A program made the position numbers and the translations under genes. Shown in pieces: positions 3,225 through 14,647 of a stretch of DNA of 33,855 nucleotides (positions are counted from its first letter, which is position 1; each line of letters starts with the position of its first letter). Location: the NCBI GenBank assembly GCA_022508785.1, contig JAFLUN010000002.1, positions 16,157-50,011 on the forward strand. The letters are read 5' to 3'. Below the pieces are notes generated by a model that was not told the origin of the DNA, searched no databases, and saw only the letters and a program-made list of their open reading frames with translations. The DNA is from Oscillospiraceae bacterium (GTDB lineage Bacteria > Bacillota > Clostridia > Oscillospirales > Acutalibacteraceae).

Positions 3225-4745
3225 CTATATTTTCGGTATAAGCAGCTTACAGCAGTGATTTATCTCTTCGTTTTGCATACGGTTCTCACGCAGAATTGCT
3301 TCAACTGTTGTATTGTAATGACGGGCTATATCCCAAACGCTTTCATTTTCATCAGCAAAATAAACCGTAAGAGATGCTGTTTTTACCGATTTGCACTTTG
3401 ATTTATCAAGAGTAATTTCCGTAACCGCTTTTGCTTCCGTTCCGCTGAAAACGAGCCCGTTAATTAAAATCTCAATTCTGACGTCAAGCGCTCCGTTTGT
3501 GCCTAATGCATAGTTATACGCCGAAACCGATGCGCCGATACTGCTCGATGACACATTTTCAAAAATTGACGGGTGCTTATATTCAAAGGGTATTTGCCTT
3601 GTAACATAATTTATATCGTTGTTTGAATCTTCAAAAATGCAGTCCGCCGTAATGCTTCCCGAAACGCAGATACTGCCGTCTGACACAGAAACATTTGACA
3701 AAATATTACTGCATTCAAAAGAAAGCACCTTTTGAATACCAACTGAGGAAACATCAACGCTCTCACGGCAAAGGAAGGTGTCATACATTTTTTCGCAAGA
3801 TGTATTTATACTTACCGTCCTCATCTCGTTTTCCGTTTCGTATTTAGTTGAATATGCATCGCAGACAAGGGTAAGCTCTCGCATATCATAGGCGCGTACC
3901 GCTATATAAAGGGTTGCTTCAATGTCAAGAAGTCCTCTGTCGCCAGACTGCTCGGAACGGGGTCTGACGGAAACGGTCGTTGCATTTATATCTGTCTGAA
4001 TAATGTTTTCTTCAACAATATCCGGCACATCTACAATTTGATTTACGGCAACTGAATTTTCAAAACACCGAATGTCGCTGTCCTCGGTTAAGCAAACCGT
4101 TCTGACAATAAGCTCACCTCTGACGAAGAGTTTGCCGTGTATTGCTTTTGCCTCGTCCGTTCTTATAAAATGGTTTACCGAAAGTACCGACTGAATTTTC
4201 TCGTTGCTGTTTATTTCGCAGGTTTCAGATACGGAAAAAGTTTTTCCTGCAAATGATGACAAAGTACAAACGTTAAGATTTTGTGCGCGCACCGTCATTC
4301 CGTCGCCCTCTGCACCGGAAATAATCTCTCTTTGTGTTTTTTGAAGCCCCGCAGCCGTAACCGTTACCGCCCCGTGAATTTCAATTTTTCTGCTGCTCGA
4401 AACACGGTAATTCACAAATTCATTTTTAGCGCTGACTGTTACGCTCTCTTGATATTCTCCGTTAAATTCAAGCTGCTTTCCGAAATGCTCGGTTTGCTCA
4501 AAGCAATGTATTTTCCCCTGCTCGCAAATGTAAATCACAGAAGCCGTGCAGTCGCACTCCGTCATTATTCTGTCGCCGCTTATTTGCTGTGACGCAACAG
4601 ACGGCGCAAGACAGCACCGCAGCACTCTTACTACGTCCGGCATATATTCCGGAAGGGTTATGTCGCAGTCTACCGTGTGTTCGGCGCAAGATATGACACG
4701 GCTGTCACATACCGAAATACTGTCCTTTTTTACGGTAAAATCCAT
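3225..4745 (-). CDS. sipL: SipL-like spore coat protein: DUF3794/SPOCS repeats plus C-terminal LysM
   Basis: Repeated SPOCS-like blocks (CDITLPEYMPDVVRVLRC...), C-terminal LysM (VYFADENESVWDIARHYNTTVEAILRENRM...KLLIPKI), size close to SipL. Start taken at MDFTVKK (4745) behind AAAGGAGA rather than the track's 4778. Confidence 0.85.
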   Translation of the reverse strand: MDFTVKKDSISVCDSRVISCAEHTVDCDITLPEYMPDVVRVLRCCLAPSVASQQISGDRIMTECDCTASVIYICEQGKIHCFEQTEHFGKQLEFNGEYQESVTVSAKNEFVNYRVSSSRKIEIHGAVTVTAAGLQKTQREIISGAEGDGMTVRAQNLNVCTLSSFAGKTFSVSETCEINSNEKIQSVLSVNHFIRTDEAKAIHGKLFVRGELIVRTVCLTEDSDIRCFENSVAVNQIVDVPDIVEENIIQTDINATTVSVRPRSEQSGDRGLLDIEATLYIAVRAYDMRELTLVCDAYSTKYETENEMRTVSINTSCEKMYDTFLCRESVDVSSVGIQKVLSFECSNILSNVSVSDGSICVSGSITADCIFEDSNNDINYVTRQIPFEYKHPSIFENVSSSSIGASVSAYNYALGTNGALDVRIEILINGLVFSGTEAKAVTEITLDKSKCKSVKTASLTVYFADENESVWDIARHYNTTVEAILRENRMQNEEINHCCKLLIPKI

Positions 4746-8023: not shown

Positions 8024-9694
8024 TTATTTAAAATAGTACACTCTTGTTTCGTACGGTCTTGTTACAAAGCCGTTGTCTTTTGTGGGATTTATGCGGTAGT
8101 TGTTAAGAACAAGCTCTCCCTTGCTTAAATCGAACCCTTCCGGAGCAGTAAAAGTAACGTTTTGCTCCGTAAACGAGCTTACAACTAAAAGTCTTTCACC
8201 GTCAAGATTTCTTTCATAAACATAAAGCTGACTGCTGTTTTTTAAATGCTCTTTATAATCCCCGTAAACCGCAACCTTATGGTTCTGACGGAAGGCAAAA
8301 AGCTTTCTGTAATAATTCAAAACCGAATCGGGGTCGCTTTCCTGTTTCTCTACATTGATTTCCTTATAATTGGGATTAACATAGAACCACGGCTCAGCCG
8401 TAGAAAATCCAGCATATTCACTACTGTCCCACTGAACGGGAGTGCGTGCATTTTCACGGGTGGTTCTGTTTGCAATTTTAAGATATTTTTCATCGGAAAA
8501 GCCCAACTTTTTGAAAAGCCTTTGATTGTTAAAGGTAACAACATCCTTAAATTTATCAATACTGTCAAGGGTAATGTTTGTCATACCGATTTCCTGACCC
8601 TGATAAATAAAGGGTGTTCCGCACTGCATATAGCACATTGTTGCAAGCATTTTAGCGCTTTCATCGTGATATTTCTCACTACCGTAACGGCTGACGATTC
8701 TCGGGTGGTCGTGATTTTCTATGTAAAGACAGTTCCAAGCCTTGCCTGCCAAATCGTTCTGCCAATGAGTAAAGGCTTTTTTCAGCTTTTTAAGACTGAA
8801 CGGGGTCTGTATTGTGTCCGTCATAATGCAGTCTGCCTGCATATGGTCAAAGCCTATCATCATATCAAGCTCATGGTCGTCGCCTGCGGTAAATTCAAGG
8901 CAGTCACTTGAATTTGACATAGGCGATTCGCCTACAACAAAGCAGTCGTATTTATCAATAACGTCATGGCGAAATTCTTTAAGGTATTCGTGAATATGCG
9001 GGCCTTTTTTATAATGCTCTATTCCCGTTGCAATGGGAAGCGGGAAGCCGTTGGGAAGCCCCTCTTTTTTTGAAATGAACGTGATTACGTCTTCTCTGAA
9101 GCCGTCAACACCCATGTCAAGCCAAAATCGCATTATATCCTTAACCTCTTCACGAACCTTGGGGTTATCCATATTAAGATCGGGCTGTTTTTTTGCAAAA
9201 ACGTGAAGATAATGCTGATTTAACTCCTCATTGTATTCCCACGCTCCGCCCTCAAAGGTGGAAAGCCAGTTGTTAGGCGGTTTTTTGCCGTCTTTTCCCT
9301 TGCCGTCACGCCAAAAATAGTAGTCGTGATAAGGATTGTCCTTACTTTTAAGACCCTCTTTAAACCATTCGTGTTCGTCAGACGTGTGGTTAACGACTAA
9401 GTCCATTATTACTTTCATTCCGCGCTCGTGAGCGCCGTCAAGAACCTTTTTGAAAAGCGGGAGTGTGCCGTATTCCGGATTTATATCCTTGTAATCGGCA
9501 ATATCATACCCGTAATCCGCATTGGGAGAAGGGTAAATAGGCGAAAACCAAATTGCATTAGCGCCGATACTCTTTATGTAGTCAAGCTTTTCGAGTACGC
9601 CCTCAAGGTCGCCTATTCCGTCGCCGTTGCCGTCCTTAAAGCTTCGGCACCAGATTTGATAAACCACTAAATCCTTATACCAACTGTTGTCCAT
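8024..9694 (-). CDS. malL: GH13 alpha-glucosidase, oligo-1,6-glucosidase type
   Basis: WYKDLVVYQIWCRSFKDGNGDGIGDLEGV, VMDLVVNHTSDEHEWF, GVDGFREDVI (nucleophile Asp), VGES (acid/base), NHDHPRIVSRYG. Val after the nucleophile Asp is typical of alpha-1,6 specificity. Confidence 0.92.
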   Translation of the reverse strand: MDNSWYKDLVVYQIWCRSFKDGNGDGIGDLEGVLEKLDYIKSIGANAIWFSPIYPSPNADYGYDIADYKDINPEYGTLPLFKKVLDGAHERGMKVIMDLVVNHTSDEHEWFKEGLKSKDNPYHDYYFWRDGKGKDGKKPPNNWLSTFEGGAWEYNEELNQHYLHVFAKKQPDLNMDNPKVREEVKDIMRFWLDMGVDGFREDVITFISKKEGLPNGFPLPIATGIEHYKKGPHIHEYLKEFRHDVIDKYDCFVVGESPMSNSSDCLEFTAGDDHELDMMIGFDHMQADCIMTDTIQTPFSLKKLKKAFTHWQNDLAGKAWNCLYIENHDHPRIVSRYGSEKYHDESAKMLATMCYMQCGTPFIYQGQEIGMTNITLDSIDKFKDVVTFNNQRLFKKLGFSDEKYLKIANRTTRENARTPVQWDSSEYAGFSTAEPWFYVNPNYKEINVEKQESDPDSVLNYYRKLFAFRQNHKVAVYGDYKEHLKNSSQLYVYERNLDGERLLVVSSFTEQNVTFTAPEGFDLSKGELVLNNYRINPTKDNGFVTRPYETRVYYFK

Positions 9695-9814: not shown

Positions 9815-9843
9815 TTGATTTTTTTCTAAATTTATGATATCAT
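9815..9843 (+). promoter_or_regulatory. Sigma-A promoter for structured leader / DUF2798 gene
   Basis: TTGATT (9815-9820), N17, TATCAT (9838-9843); the -10 sits in the palindrome TTATGATATCATAA (9832-9845). Confidence 0.55.
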
Positions 9844-9872
9844 AACTAAAAATAAAATACGGATAATCAACG

Positions 9873-9932
9873 ACACATGTGGCACTTTACGGTGCGTAAA
9901 TCTGATTACGGTACAGATTTTACTGCATGTGT
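9873..9932 (+). ncRNA. Candidate cis-regulatory RNA: three-way-junction leader element
   Basis: P1 ACACATG/CATGTGT (9873-9879/9926-9932), P2 GCAC-TTTACG-GTGC (9882-9895), P3 AAATCTG-ATTACGGTA-CAGATTT (9898-9920); followed by an intrinsic terminator. Fold done by eye. Confidence 0.55.
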
Positions 9933-9944
9933 TTTTTATTTTGG

Positions 9945-9970
9945 GCACATGCATATCATGTGCTTTTTTG
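9945..9970 (+). terminator. Intrinsic terminator upstream of the DUF2798 start codon (attenuator)
   Basis: GCACATG (9945-9951)-CATAT-CATGTGC (9957-9963) followed by TTTTTTG. Confidence 0.8.
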
Positions 9971-9993
9971 TTTGTCCGAAAAGGAGAATATTT

Positions 9994-10560
9994 ATGCCGA
10001 GAAATCAATTTCAAAGAATGGTTTTTGCCTTTATTACAGTGGTGATAACCGTACATGCTTATGTGTTTTACAGTCTTTATGTAATTCACGGTAACATGTT
10101 TATGAACCTTACCGGAGAAACGGGGGTAATTGCCGCCATTAACAAAATGGGCGGCGTTCCCGTGTTCGGAAAACCCGTGCCGATTTGGGCAATAATACTT
10201 ATTGAGTTTGTATTAGCCTACACACTTGAAGTTCTTTTGGGCTCTCCCCTTTCATTTAAACTTGCCTGCAAGAATTTCGACCCTCGCACAACTCACCCCG
10301 TGTTATTTGAAACTGCAATTATTTGTGCCACAGTCGGTATTATGTGCCCTGTAATGAGCTTTATCGCCGCCTTTCTTTACTATAACTATCAGGCAGGATT
10401 TAATATGTGGACACTGCTTGCAGAATGGCTTAAGCTCGTGTGCTTTAATTTCCCGTTTGCATTCTTTACACAGTTATTTTTCATTCAGCCGTTTGTCAGA
10501 ACGGTATTCAAGTCTATATTTGCAAAAGATATAAAAAAAGCACAAAAAATTGATAATTAA
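9994..10560 (+). CDS. DUF2798-like integral membrane protein
   Basis: MPRNQFQRMVFAFITVVITVHAYVFYSLY resembles DUF2798; about four TM segments. ATG 9994 behind AAAAGGAGA; the longer track ORF reads through the leader RNA. Confidence 0.72.
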   Translation: MPRNQFQRMVFAFITVVITVHAYVFYSLYVIHGNMFMNLTGETGVIAAINKMGGVPVFGKPVPIWAIILIEFVLAYTLEVLLGSPLSFKLACKNFDPRTTHPVLFETAIICATVGIMCPVMSFIAAFLYYNYQAGFNMWTLLAEWLKLVCFNFPFAFFTQLFFIQPFVRTVFKSIFAKDIKKAQKIDN

Positions 10561-10596: not shown

Positions 10597-10625
10597 TTGA
10601 AAGGGCTTGACAGCAGGAGTATAAT
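10597..10625 (+). promoter_or_regulatory. Sigma-A promoter for the V/A-type ATPase operon
   Basis: TTGAAA (10597-10602), N17, TATAAT (10620-10625), about 40 nt upstream of the first ATPase gene. Confidence 0.65.
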
Positions 10626-10664
10626 AGTTAGAACACGAAAAACACAAAAGGAGTGATTTTCGAT

Positions 10665-10985
10665 ATGGAAAGCAGTATGGATATAATTCTCAAACAGATA
10701 ATAGAAACCGATACCCTTTCCCGTGAAAAGGTAAACGAGAAAAAGCAACGGCTTCTTTCTCTTGACACGGAAATTACGGAATCAAAAAATGCAATTGATG
10801 CAGAGCTTAGCGAGCGGTCTAAAAAAAATATTGCTAAGCAAACCGAAACGTCTGAAATAAAGCTGAAAAAAGAGCTTGCAAGAATTGCTTCGTTCTACGC
10901 AGATGCGGAAACGAAGCTTCGTGACGCATTCCAAAACGGACGAAATGAAATGGTTGAAAAAATCTTTAAAAAGGTTACTGAATAA
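10665..10985 (+). CDS. V/A-type ATPase peripheral stalk subunit H/G-like coiled coil
   Basis: Small, highly charged helical protein, first gene of the ATPase cluster. ATG 10665 preferred over GTG 10653, which overlaps the RBS AAAGGAG. Confidence 0.7.
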   Translation: MESSMDIILKQIIETDTLSREKVNEKKQRLLSLDTEITESKNAIDAELSERSKKNIAKQTETSEIKLKKELARIASFYADAETKLRDAFQNGRNEMVEKIFKKVTE

Positions 10986-11018
10986 ACACATTGGAGTTTT
11001 TGCGAAGGGAGTGAGAAA

Positions 11019-12056
11019 GTGAATTATTCGGAAAATGCCGTTACCGCAAAGGTGCACGCGCTTTTTGCAAAACGGTTGACAGATGAAGATTACGCAAATT
11101 TACTGTCGTTTCATTCAAATGAAGAAATATTTAACTATCTTCGCAATGAAACATCTTACGCTGAATATTTAGATGTTCTGCCCTCCGTTACACTTTCTTC
11201 CTCGCGTTTTGAAAACGCGTTGCAAAAGTGTCTTCTGGACAGAAAAGCGTCCCTTTGCAGATTTCAAAAGCTCATCGGCGACAAGACATACAGTTATTTC
11301 ATAAAAAAAGACGAAATAGAAGCAATTTTATATTGTGCAAGACACCTTGACACCGAAATTATTACAGACTTATTTGACCGTCCTGCTTTTTTTATCCGTG
11401 AGCAGTCCGTTTCCGGAACTGAGCTGCAACGGGCAACGTCATTTGACGAATTTGCCGATTTGCTTTCTCAAACACCGTATGCCAAAAAAGTCGAACCGTT
11501 ATTTTCATCGGACAGTAATTATAAAAGCCTTGCCGCACTTGAAAGAATACTGTTTAACGACTTGTATTCTAATCTTAAAGCTACTATATGTAAGAAATAT
11601 AAAGGTAAAAGCAGTAAAGAAATTATAAGATATATCGAGTTTATTTCTGATATGAGCATAATCAGCTCGTTTTACAGATTGACTGAGAATTATCCCGACT
11701 TTAAAAATTACCAAGCGGGTATACTTATGCCGTCCGTTACTGCATTTACACCAAAAGAAATCCGTCAATTTGAAGCGGCTCAAACAGCTAAAGATGTTTT
11801 GAATATTGTAAAAGCTTCCGTCTACGGAAAATATTTTACTGAAAAAATTACAAACATCGATTTATTCGTGCGAAAGCTCACGGTGGAAAAGAGCGTAAAA
11901 AACATACGGTATTCTCAAAACCCGATTCTCTCGCTCTTTTCTTATGAGACGGTTTTGCAAAACGAAATAAACAATATCATACACATTATCGAGGGTGTAA
12001 AATACGGTCTTAACCCTTCCGAAATATCAGATATACTTGTGAAAGGAGGATGCTGA
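11019..12056 (+). CDS. ntpC: V-type ATPase subunit C (central stalk/d-type)
   Basis: MNYSENAVTAKVHALFAKRLTDEDYANLL, size about 345 aa, position in cluster; GTG start behind GGGAG. Confidence 0.85.
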   Translation: MNYSENAVTAKVHALFAKRLTDEDYANLLSFHSNEEIFNYLRNETSYAEYLDVLPSVTLSSSRFENALQKCLLDRKASLCRFQKLIGDKTYSYFIKKDEIEAILYCARHLDTEIITDLFDRPAFFIREQSVSGTELQRATSFDEFADLLSQTPYAKKVEPLFSSDSNYKSLAALERILFNDLYSNLKATICKKYKGKSSKEIIRYIEFISDMSIISSFYRLTENYPDFKNYQAGILMPSVTAFTPKEIRQFEAAQTAKDVLNIVKASVYGKYFTEKITNIDLFVRKLTVEKSVKNIRYSQNPILSLFSYETVLQNEINNIIHIIEGVKYGLNPSEISDILVKGGC

Positions 12057-14011
12057 TGTCTGTTCAAAAAATGCAGCTTGTCACCCTTAGCGGTGATAAT
12101 AATCTTCTGCATGAAACTGCAAAAAAGCTTTATAAGTGCGGATATTTTCAACCGGAAAATCCGGGGAAGCACATATCCGTTTCTCTTGGATTTATTCCTT
12201 ATGCAGATGAAAATCCGTACACAACTATGCTTGAAAAAATGCACGGGCAGATTGAAAACAGCGGTTACACCGTAACTTATAATCCGGAAACTGCCGATTT
12301 TCCGCTGACTGACGAAGAAACCGCACGCTTAAACGAGCTGTATGAAAAATCCGAAAAGATTTCAGAAAAAAAGAAATCCTTAATTTCTCAAAAACAAGCC
12401 TGCGAGGAGGGCATTACGAAATTCTCGCATTTTAAAGAGTTGAGTGTTAATCTTGACGATATTACCGCTCTTCAATACGTAAAGGTGCGTTTCGGTCATA
12501 TGCCGAGGGAAAGTGTAAAACGGCTGCCCGAGCTTTTCGAGAAATGTCCCTATTTCTATTTCGTACCGTGCAGTGCCGACAAAACGGATTTCTGGGGCGT
12601 TTATTTCGCTCCCAAAAACCACATTGACGAGGTTGACGGAATATTTGCTCTGCTGCTTTTTGAGCCCTTTGAGGTTCCTTCCGCCGCAGGTACGGTGCAG
12701 AGCGTTATAGCTGAGCTCCGGAGCAGTCTAAAAATTATTGACGAGCAGTTAAACGAGATAGACGAGGAATCTAACACAGAATGGAATAATGACACTTCGG
12801 TTTACGACACGGTTTATTCAAAAATATATTTTATGAACCGCCTTGAAGAATTAAAAAGTTATTCCGTCCACAACGGTCACTACTTTATGCTTGTGGGTTG
12901 GGTTCCGCAAAAACAGCTTGCAGAACTTTCCGATTTATTTAACGGAAGCGGAATTTCAGTTGAAACAGGCGATACGGATTCCGAAAACGCTACGCCGCCA
13001 GTTTCGGTCAAAGAGCATAAAGGACTTTTAAAATTTCTTGTAAATCCTTATAAATTCTATATTGATATGTACGGCACGCCCTCTCACAAGGACATTGACG
13101 TAACAGCGTTCGTAGCAGTTACCTACACAATTCTTTTCGGTGTAATGTTCGGCGATATGGGCCACGGTCTTGTACTTTCCGTTGCGGGATTTTTAATGTA
13201 TAAACTCAAGAAAATGGAAATAGGCAAAACTCTTATTCCCTGCGGCATTTCTTCAATGGTGTTCGGATTTATTTTCGGAAGCGTATTCGGCTTTGAAGAG
13301 TTGCTTGACCCTATTTACAAAGCAATGGGTCTTTCGGGAAAACCTGTTTCGGTTATGGACAGCGTAAATTCCGTGCTTCTCGTAACCCTCGTTATAGGAA
13401 TAGTGCTGACTACCCTTTCAATGCTTCTGAATGTTTACGGTTGTATAAAGAACAAACGATTCGGTGAGGCGATATTCAGCAATAACGGTCTTACGGGCAT
13501 TGCGGTTTACCTTTGCGGCGCAAACTTAGCTTCACGCTTTATGGGCGGATTTGCTCCGATACCATCGGGTGTTGCGGCAATAATTATTGGCGTGGGTGCG
13601 GTACTTTTACTCGTAAAAGAAATTCTTATCGGCGCGATTGATAAGCATAAAGACTTTATGCCAGAAAGCATAATGGACTTTATTCTTCAAAATTTCTTTG
13701 AGCTTATTGAATATATTTTATCGTATCTCAGCAACACGCTTTCATTCCTTCGTATCGGCGCTTATGTTCTTGTTCACGCAGGAATGATGCTTGCGGTTTT
13801 TGCCCTTGCAGGCGAAAACAGAAATGCGCTGATTCTTATATTCGGCAATATTTTTGTTATTGCAGTTGAAGGTCTTTTGACCGCTATTCAGGTTTTACGT
13901 CTTGAATTCTATGAAATGTTTTCAAGATTTTACGGCGGTGACGGTAAACCGTTCATCCCGTTCACAGACAAACAATTCTCTATCGGAGGTAATAAAAATG
14001 AAAAACATTAA
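12056..14011 (+). CDS. ntpI: V-type ATPase subunit I (a-type)
   Basis: About 650 aa; soluble N-terminal half then multi-TM C-terminal half with MFGDMGHGLVL and SNTLSFLRIGAYVLVHAGM; start overlaps the ntpC stop (TGATG). Confidence 0.95.
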   Translation: MSVQKMQLVTLSGDNNLLHETAKKLYKCGYFQPENPGKHISVSLGFIPYADENPYTTMLEKMHGQIENSGYTVTYNPETADFPLTDEETARLNELYEKSEKISEKKKSLISQKQACEEGITKFSHFKELSVNLDDITALQYVKVRFGHMPRESVKRLPELFEKCPYFYFVPCSADKTDFWGVYFAPKNHIDEVDGIFALLLFEPFEVPSAAGTVQSVIAELRSSLKIIDEQLNEIDEESNTEWNNDTSVYDTVYSKIYFMNRLEELKSYSVHNGHYFMLVGWVPQKQLAELSDLFNGSGISVETGDTDSENATPPVSVKEHKGLLKFLVNPYKFYIDMYGTPSHKDIDVTAFVAVTYTILFGVMFGDMGHGLVLSVAGFLMYKLKKMEIGKTLIPCGISSMVFGFIFGSVFGFEELLDPIYKAMGLSGKPVSVMDSVNSVLLVTLVIGIVLTTLSMLLNVYGCIKNKRFGEAIFSNNGLTGIAVYLCGANLASRFMGGFAPIPSGVAAIIIGVGAVLLLVKEILIGAIDKHKDFMPESIMDFILQNFFELIEYILSYLSNTLSFLRIGAYVLVHAGMMLAVFALAGENRNALILIFGNIFVIAVEGLLTAIQVLRLEFYEMFSRFYGGDGKPFIPFTDKQFSIGGNKNEKH

Positions 14012-14339
14012 AAAAATCGTTAGCGTGATAATCGTTGCAATTATGCTTATGTCTGCATTTTCCGTATTCGCTTTCGCAGAAGAGGCAACAACCGAAGCCG
14101 CCGCATCAGGTGACAGCGCAGGCTTTGCAAAGGGTATGGGTCTTTTGGCCGCTGCAATAGTAACGTCCCTTGCAGGTATCGGCGGCGGTATTGCAATAGC
14201 ATCAGGCGCTCCTGCCGCTATTGCCGCAAACGCTGAAAACCCAAAGACATTCGGTAAATCAATAATTTTCGTTGCTCTCGGTGAATCAATTATTCTTTTC
14301 GGCTTCGTTGTATCCATTCTTATTTTGCAGAAGGTATAA
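13998..14339 (+). CDS. ntpK: V/A-type ATPase c-ring subunit K, two-helix form with N-terminal signal sequence
   Basis: Signal peptide-like MKNIKKIVSVIIVAIMLMSAFSVFAFAEE, then helix GMGLLAAAIVTSLAGIGGGIAIASGAP, loop AENPKTFG, and helix with VALGESIILFGFVVSILIL. ATG 13998 behind GGAGGT. Confidence 0.92.
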   Translation: MKNIKKIVSVIIVAIMLMSAFSVFAFAEEATTEAAASGDSAGFAKGMGLLAAAIVTSLAGIGGGIAIASGAPAAIAANAENPKTFGKSIIFVALGESIILFGFVVSILILQKV

Positions 14340-14341
14340 TT

Positions 14342-14647
14342 ATGAAGTTTTATCTGCTTTCAGACGATCCAGATTCTATTGTCGGGCTTCGTCTTGCCGG
14401 TATTCAGGGAAAGCTTTTGCAGAACGGCGAGAGCGCCCTTGAACAAATCCAAAAAATAAGCGAAGATAAAGACATTGGTATGATTTTAATTACGCCGAAC
14501 ATTTCAAAGCTTTTAGGCAGTTCGTTAACCGAGCTTAAAAAGAAAAATCTTCCGCTTATTTCTGAAATTCCCGACAGCAATCCTCAAAACAATTCTTCGG
14601 ATAATGTTACGGACTATATCCGCTCTGCAGTCGGAATAAAAATTTAA
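14342..14647 (+). CDS. ntpF: V-type ATPase subunit F
   Basis: MKFYLLSDDPDSIVGLRLAGIQG start, GMILITPNIS motif, about 101 aa, cluster position. Confidence 0.9.
   Translation: MKFYLLSDDPDSIVGLRLAGIQGKLLQNGESALEQIQKISEDKDIGMILITPNISKLLGSSLTELKKKNLPLISEIPDSNPQNNSSDNVTDYIRSAVGIKI

Follow-up and report, generated by a model that had tools for sequence, protein, structure and literature searches.

The leader preceding a gene for a DUF2798-type membrane protein in the window (the whole 33,855-nucleotide stretch of Oscillospiraceae DNA analysed here) is probably, at an estimated probability of about 0.8 from comparative sequence evidence, a copy of a transcriptional ON riboswitch that is embedded in a terminator, responds to a small-molecule ligand and belongs to an unlisted class. 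The initial annotation of this leader had described it as a riboswitch-like attenuator; the attenuator, the absence of its class from Rfam and the exclusive helices have been retained, whilst the roles given to two of its helices, P1 and P3, were misassigned. Should the present reading be right, the element would represent a riboswitch class that is not listed and whose architecture is compact and testable. It would then give DUF2798 proteins their first functional lead, place them in a common regulon with MATE and MFS exporters, and indicate a compound which bacteria of gut and rumen must expel. The consensus, the exclusive helices and the mutable single bases are explicit enough for direct probing and termination assays. 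The features of the leader are collected in Table 1.

Table 1. Layout of the leader and its flanking signals in the window (coordinates are window positions).
Feature	Position	Strand	Remarks
Sigma-70 promoter TTGATT-17-TATCAT	9815-9843	+	TG precedes the -10 box
Pa 5' strand AATC (closing helix of the putative ON-state aptamer)	9865-9868	+	Homologous columns covary; 4 bp with 9916-9919
Core block 1, ACGACACATGT (consensus ACGACACRNGY); doubles as 5' arm of terminator 1	9870-9880	+	All columns but N near-invariant in 189 leaders
P2 hairpin GCAC-TTTACG-GTGC (9882-9885/9892-9895)	9882-9895	+	Top covarying pairs
Core block 2, GTAAATCTGATTACGG (consensus RUAARYCUGAUYACGG)	9896-9911	+	Near-invariant; its R5 covaries with Y9 of block 1
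P3, AAATCTG 9898-9904/CAGATTT 9914-9920; accessory OFF-state hairpin, would lock core block 2	9898-9920	+	Complete only in a subset of relatives
Pa 3' strand GATT	9916-9919	+	Covariation and pairing with 9865-9868
Terminator 1 (P1 of the initial annotation), 9872-9881/9924-9933 then T6; P2 and core block 2 lie within it	9872-9937	+	
Antiterminator, 9924-9934 pairing with 9943-9953; excludes both terminators	9924-9953	+	11 bp
Terminator 2, 9 bp, 5-nt loop, T6; 5' arm CACATG resembles core block 1	9943-9969	+	
Shine-Dalgarno sequence AAGGAG	9981-9986	+	
Regulated gene, 188-aa DUF2798-type membrane protein, ATG at 9994	9994-10560	+	

The promoter and the three pairings originally proposed, P1 (ACACATG 9873-9879/CATGTGT 9926-9932), P2 and P3, were all found in the window, as was the terminator ahead of the Shine-Dalgarno sequence (9943-9965 followed by six T), and the complementarity noted between the 3' strand of P1 and the 5' arm of that terminator was seen to extend to the 11-bp antiterminator helix. 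Folding of the P1-P3 region gives -20.6 kcal/mol with a z-score of -3.73, a value that none of 200 shuffles equalled, and the z-score of the full leader fold is -2.99. P1 had been taken for the closing stem of an aptamer, which is not supported: since a run of six T directly adjoins its 3' strand, P1 is the stem of a first terminator, and a U-run lies immediately 3' of this strand in most leaders. The core is closed by Pa, a flanking helix that had been overlooked. The terminator of the initial annotation is a second, optional one; a simple scan for hairpins gave 23 leaders of 182 (about 13%) with such a second terminator, and in many of these the 5' arm carries GCACATG, a copy of block 1. P3, formerly a core element, is weak or absent in several relatives (e.g. 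L014, L016, L054, L075 and L081), and for this lack of conservation it was dropped as an aptamer helix.

Relatives of the leader were collected at increasing taxonomic distance. A DNA search returned close copies within the genus, and a striking block recurs upstream of the family's DUF2798 homologues. The 14-mer AAATCTGATTACGG occurs 49 times in 398 genomes of the family and its reversed control not at all, so that the leader motif is not a product of chance, although the occurrences outside the family leaders lie mostly inside other sequence and do look like chance. On reading of all fetched loci, 34 distinct family leaders were found to carry both blocks, and a covariance model built on these matched 37 of 396 order-level and 32 of 388 class-level genomes, counts that include a few low-scoring chance matches; among 219 phylum-wide genomes it matched two more, from other classes. 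Low-scoring model matches (L115-L118 and L148-L150) were left out of the counts. A pattern scan of named genomes added at least 118 contigs with the element; among the matches listed, most were from gut or rumen Lachnospiraceae, Oscillospiraceae and other Clostridia, together with Treponema berlinense and one Treponema metagenome-assembled genome (MAG), and Pseudobutyrivibrio ruminis and Clostridium bovifaecis are also among the named records. Some taxon assignments, for example that of one Muribaculaceae MAG, may reflect contamination. In total 191 distinct sites were assembled, mostly from Clostridia, with others from further classes of the phylum and from Treponema; more than a hundred Clostridia of the gut and rumen, along with a few Treponema, carry the element. 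These sites were gathered by sequence patterns, so the conservation of the core is partly built in, although the covariance-model searches added few looser relatives. The core pattern had no exact counterpart in a virus collection.

Across 189 aligned leaders the two blocks are near-invariant and flank P2. When 2926 column pairs were scanned without supervision, three P2 pairs ranked highest, followed by the pair between Y9 of block 1 and R5 of block 2 and then by two Pa pairs. The strongest P2 pairs are formed in 99%, 98% and 83% of leaders, and 94% of all P2 cells are paired; Y9-R5 is U-A in 179 leaders and C-G in 10, with zero exceptions, a covariation carried by these 10 variants, which come from few lineages. 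The combined covariation score of Pa and P2 was 0.658 in the seed alignment, where shuffled controls gave 0.292 +/- 0.025 and slid controls no more than 0.231, and 0.539 in 90 distinct sequences (0.255 shuffled, 0.240 slid); the shuffled controls ignore phylogeny and the slid ones keep it, but the sequences scored are those from which the structure had been obtained. In 86 of 189 leaders Pa forms a stem of 4 bp or more, against 42 (maximum 55) with shuffled partners, and Pa is thus real but loose, about half of the leaders being without 4 bp in the searched register. A lack of covariation or of terminator conservation had been named at the outset as refuting a structured regulatory RNA, and this refutation failed: P2 and the closing helix covary, and so does the terminator stem. 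Taken on these alignments, the leader is almost certainly a conserved, structured RNA.

Within the core, the two blocks would be joined by a helix consisting of C5-G9, A6-U8, the mismatch N7xC7, G8-Y6 and Y9-R5, of which the invariant pairs lie beyond covariation. The variable base N of block 1 stands opposite a C that is invariant, and just 2 of the 189 leaders have G at N, though neighbouring variable positions are G in 23%; this avoidance suggests that the mismatch is required. A further contact of two pairs, C-G and G-C, presumably links ACGA (9870-9873) with ACGG (9908-9911), and its C-G position reads C-G in 182 leaders, U-G in four, U-A in two and C-A in one.

That the element controls transcription termination is very probable from the arrangement of its strands. 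For 151 leaders the terminator 3' strand could be placed from its U-run, N being left out of the placement; in 123 of them N pairs with the base facing it in that strand, where 75 are expected and the maximum in 10,000 shuffles was 92. Because N covaries with the terminator 3' strand, block 1 belongs to both the aptamer and terminator 1, and only one of the two states can form at a time. The mutually exclusive helices first suggested for the window are supported. Antiterminator complementarity was also read by eye in L002, L003 and L064. The OFF fold (both terminators, P2 and P3) was calculated at -28.8 kcal/mol and the ON fold (aptamer and antiterminator) at -15.9 kcal/mol, values that leave co-transcriptional folding and tertiary contacts out of account; the difference implies that termination would be the ligand-free default and that the ligand would have to act during transcription. 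A -10 box was found at a median of 26 nt upstream of the ACGACAC core in 147 of 187 leaders, against 63 expected by shuffling, and 122 of these 147 also carry a -35 box; the mRNA therefore opens directly with the aptamer, transcription starting some 20 nt ahead of the core.

In the proposed mechanism, block 1 would, when ligand is absent, be paired by its downstream complement and transcription would stop. Binding of the ligand to the nascent aptamer would lock block 1 in the pocket and block terminator 1, allowing the exporter-type gene to be transcribed. In the window and in similar leaders the freed 3' strand of terminator 1 would then pair with the 5' arm of terminator 2 (11 bp in the window), so that one binding event could disable both terminators. 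At positions 1602-1680 of L299, a leader from another class, a second hairpin containing a degenerate motif copy (GGCACACGT..TTAAATTACG) acts as the second terminator before an MFS gene, and this copy hints at how the two-terminator arrangement may have originated.

Attenuation of this kind could also be governed by a protein. In protein-controlled antitermination, long conserved single-stranded blocks likewise overlap a terminator, as the blocks of the present element do, and a regulator such as an antiterminator protein might bind the core and so block the terminator. Such a regulator would have to act across phyla on one element that serves three unrelated exporter-type families, and no common regulator gene neighbours it: in the 154 loci with enough downstream sequence no gene behind DUF2798 is strongly recurrent, another MATE gene being found there in six cases. 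The interlocked blocks, the covarying contact and the G-avoiding mismatch also look like a folded pocket, and control by a protein is accordingly considered improbable. A second proposal made at the outset, that translation of a leader peptide is sensed, has practically nothing left to recommend it. An in-frame reading frame does run from the ATG at 9877 into the gene, but this ATG has no preceding Shine-Dalgarno sequence and exists only through a T at the variable core position, which is T in 92 of 189 leaders, and what is conserved is RNA letters and pairs, not codons.

With Rfam 15, the window gave no match at the gathering cut-off, the relatives gave only 5S rRNA or tRNA, and in six relatives there was no match to the leader at E <= 5, in agreement with the original remark that the leader belongs to no recognised class. 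At relaxed thresholds the best score below cut-off in the window was that of preQ1-II, 26.8 bits (cut-off 47), which was absent in the relatives and was judged incidental. The openly licensed, non-preprint papers searched contained no relevant occurrence of the core letters, no link between DUF2798 and riboswitches and no relevant fifth guanidine class; the chance that the element has already been reported elsewhere is put at about one in four. The HMP-PP riboswitch (thiS motif) is also described as a terminator-embedded aptamer (PMC6478431); it differs in its association with thiS, and the window has no Rfam match.

The logic of an ON switch with an aptamer element inside the terminator has been described for guanidine-IV and its variant Gd4v, MATE genes are targets in all three systems, and Gd4v is gut-enriched (PMC9788692; PMC7736828). 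Guanidine-IV (the mepA/GGAM-1 motif) is a transcriptional ON switch that has part of its aptamer inside a Rho-independent terminator, with MATE genes downstream (PMC7736828; PMC12186494), and the present element could in principle be a member or close variant of either. However, guanidine-IV consists of two hairpins joined by a pseudoknot and is found mostly with sugE, and Gd4v has its own 5' hairpin and pseudoknot. Here the promoter is followed by about 20 nt of unpaired leader, the position of the -10 box leaves no room for a 5' hairpin, and the centroid fold of the window has no hairpin upstream of the core. The guanidine-IV consensus is without conserved ACG trimers according to its authors (PMC7736828), whereas ACG is near-invariant here at both 9870-9872 and 9908-9910. 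The targets differ as well, being mostly DUF2798; the main genes of Gd4v, including its transaminase and acetyltransferase (GNAT) targets, are absent here except for MATE, and sugE is absent too. Membership in guanidine-IV or Gd4v was rejected on these features (5' hairpin, ACG and targets), which were compared through the published text of the two motifs, and is considered very unlikely.

A different relation to guanidine is conceivable, in which the element is a new riboswitch for guanidine or a close organic cation and its ACGA and ACGG pair antiparallel to form the binding site. In guanidine-II (mini-ykkC), which also has efflux targets, the loops have the sequence ACGR and are paired by the cross-strand contacts C8-G9' and G9-C8' (PMC5486947), and in the present element ACGA and ACGG are both near-invariant and able to form the same C-G/G-C pairs. 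The exporter-type targets fit such a ligand, guanidine-IV likewise controlling MATE genes (PMC12186494). The resemblance amounts to four letters, however, and can be chance. The ACGR elements of guanidine-II, a riboswitch thought to act mostly on translation, stand in the loops of two GC-rich hairpins, whereas those described here lie in one internal loop beside a terminator and not in kissing-loop geometry, and U-A is tolerated where guanidine-II needs C-G. No match to guanidine-II (RF01068) was obtained in the window or its own genome. The hallmark gene of guanidine riboswitches, sugE/Gdx, was never found with the motif, none being identified among the 191 sites, and two genomes (G977 and G1016) carry guanidine-I upstream of a sugE-like open reading frame and the present motif elsewhere; no guanidine-I riboswitch in the class was seen upstream of DUF2798 or of the exporters described here. 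A guanidine-type ligand is therefore a tentative proposal, and as a special case of the ON riboswitch it adds nothing to the probability of the main reading. Its fuller form, in which a new, widespread ON riboswitch of gut Clostridia and Treponema would sense guanidinium or another small toxic cation through the ACGR pair and the uncharacterised DUF2798 protein would be the dedicated exporter, is slightly more doubtful still; if true, an exporter role would be new for the DUF2798 family.

The genes downstream of the 191 sites encode DUF2798 proteins in 152 cases, MATE proteins in 26 and MFS proteins in three, with 10 unassigned, three of which are cut off by the end of a contig. The gene in the window passes the Pfam model of DUF2798 with 24.3 bits (cut-off 23.5), which bears out the target first named and fits exporter-type targets. 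Its AlphaFold2 model (mean pLDDT 86.7) has four long helices and found no match in a fold search of the PDB (best E 2.9); the alignment shows two invariant glutamates, E71 and E79, both within the second of these predicted long helices. Distant DUF2798 homologues of about 30-38% identity (L020, L022-L030 and two plasmid records) are without the element. Locus L207 (C. bovifaecis CP046522, minus strand, 4225-4263) has a seemingly intact element and terminator, but the DUF2798 frame downstream appears truncated or broken. The MATE targets of about 660 amino acids were considered as DUF2798 fusions, which was rejected, Pfam giving a cytidylate-kinase-like domain instead: in L227 this domain (PF13189) is C-terminal, an unusual combination, and other MATE loci of equal length (e.g. 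L197, L213 and L251) look like L227. The MFS target at L243 (1593 onwards) is EmrB-like and has a C-terminal CBS pair, and its leader is without a clear terminator. In the window, what looks like an operon for an archaeal-type (V-type) ATPase follows at 10664-14647 with its own promoter-like site (10597-10625), a link to the leader being improbable, and an alpha-glucosidase-like gene (8024-9694, minus strand) is divergent from the same intergenic region.
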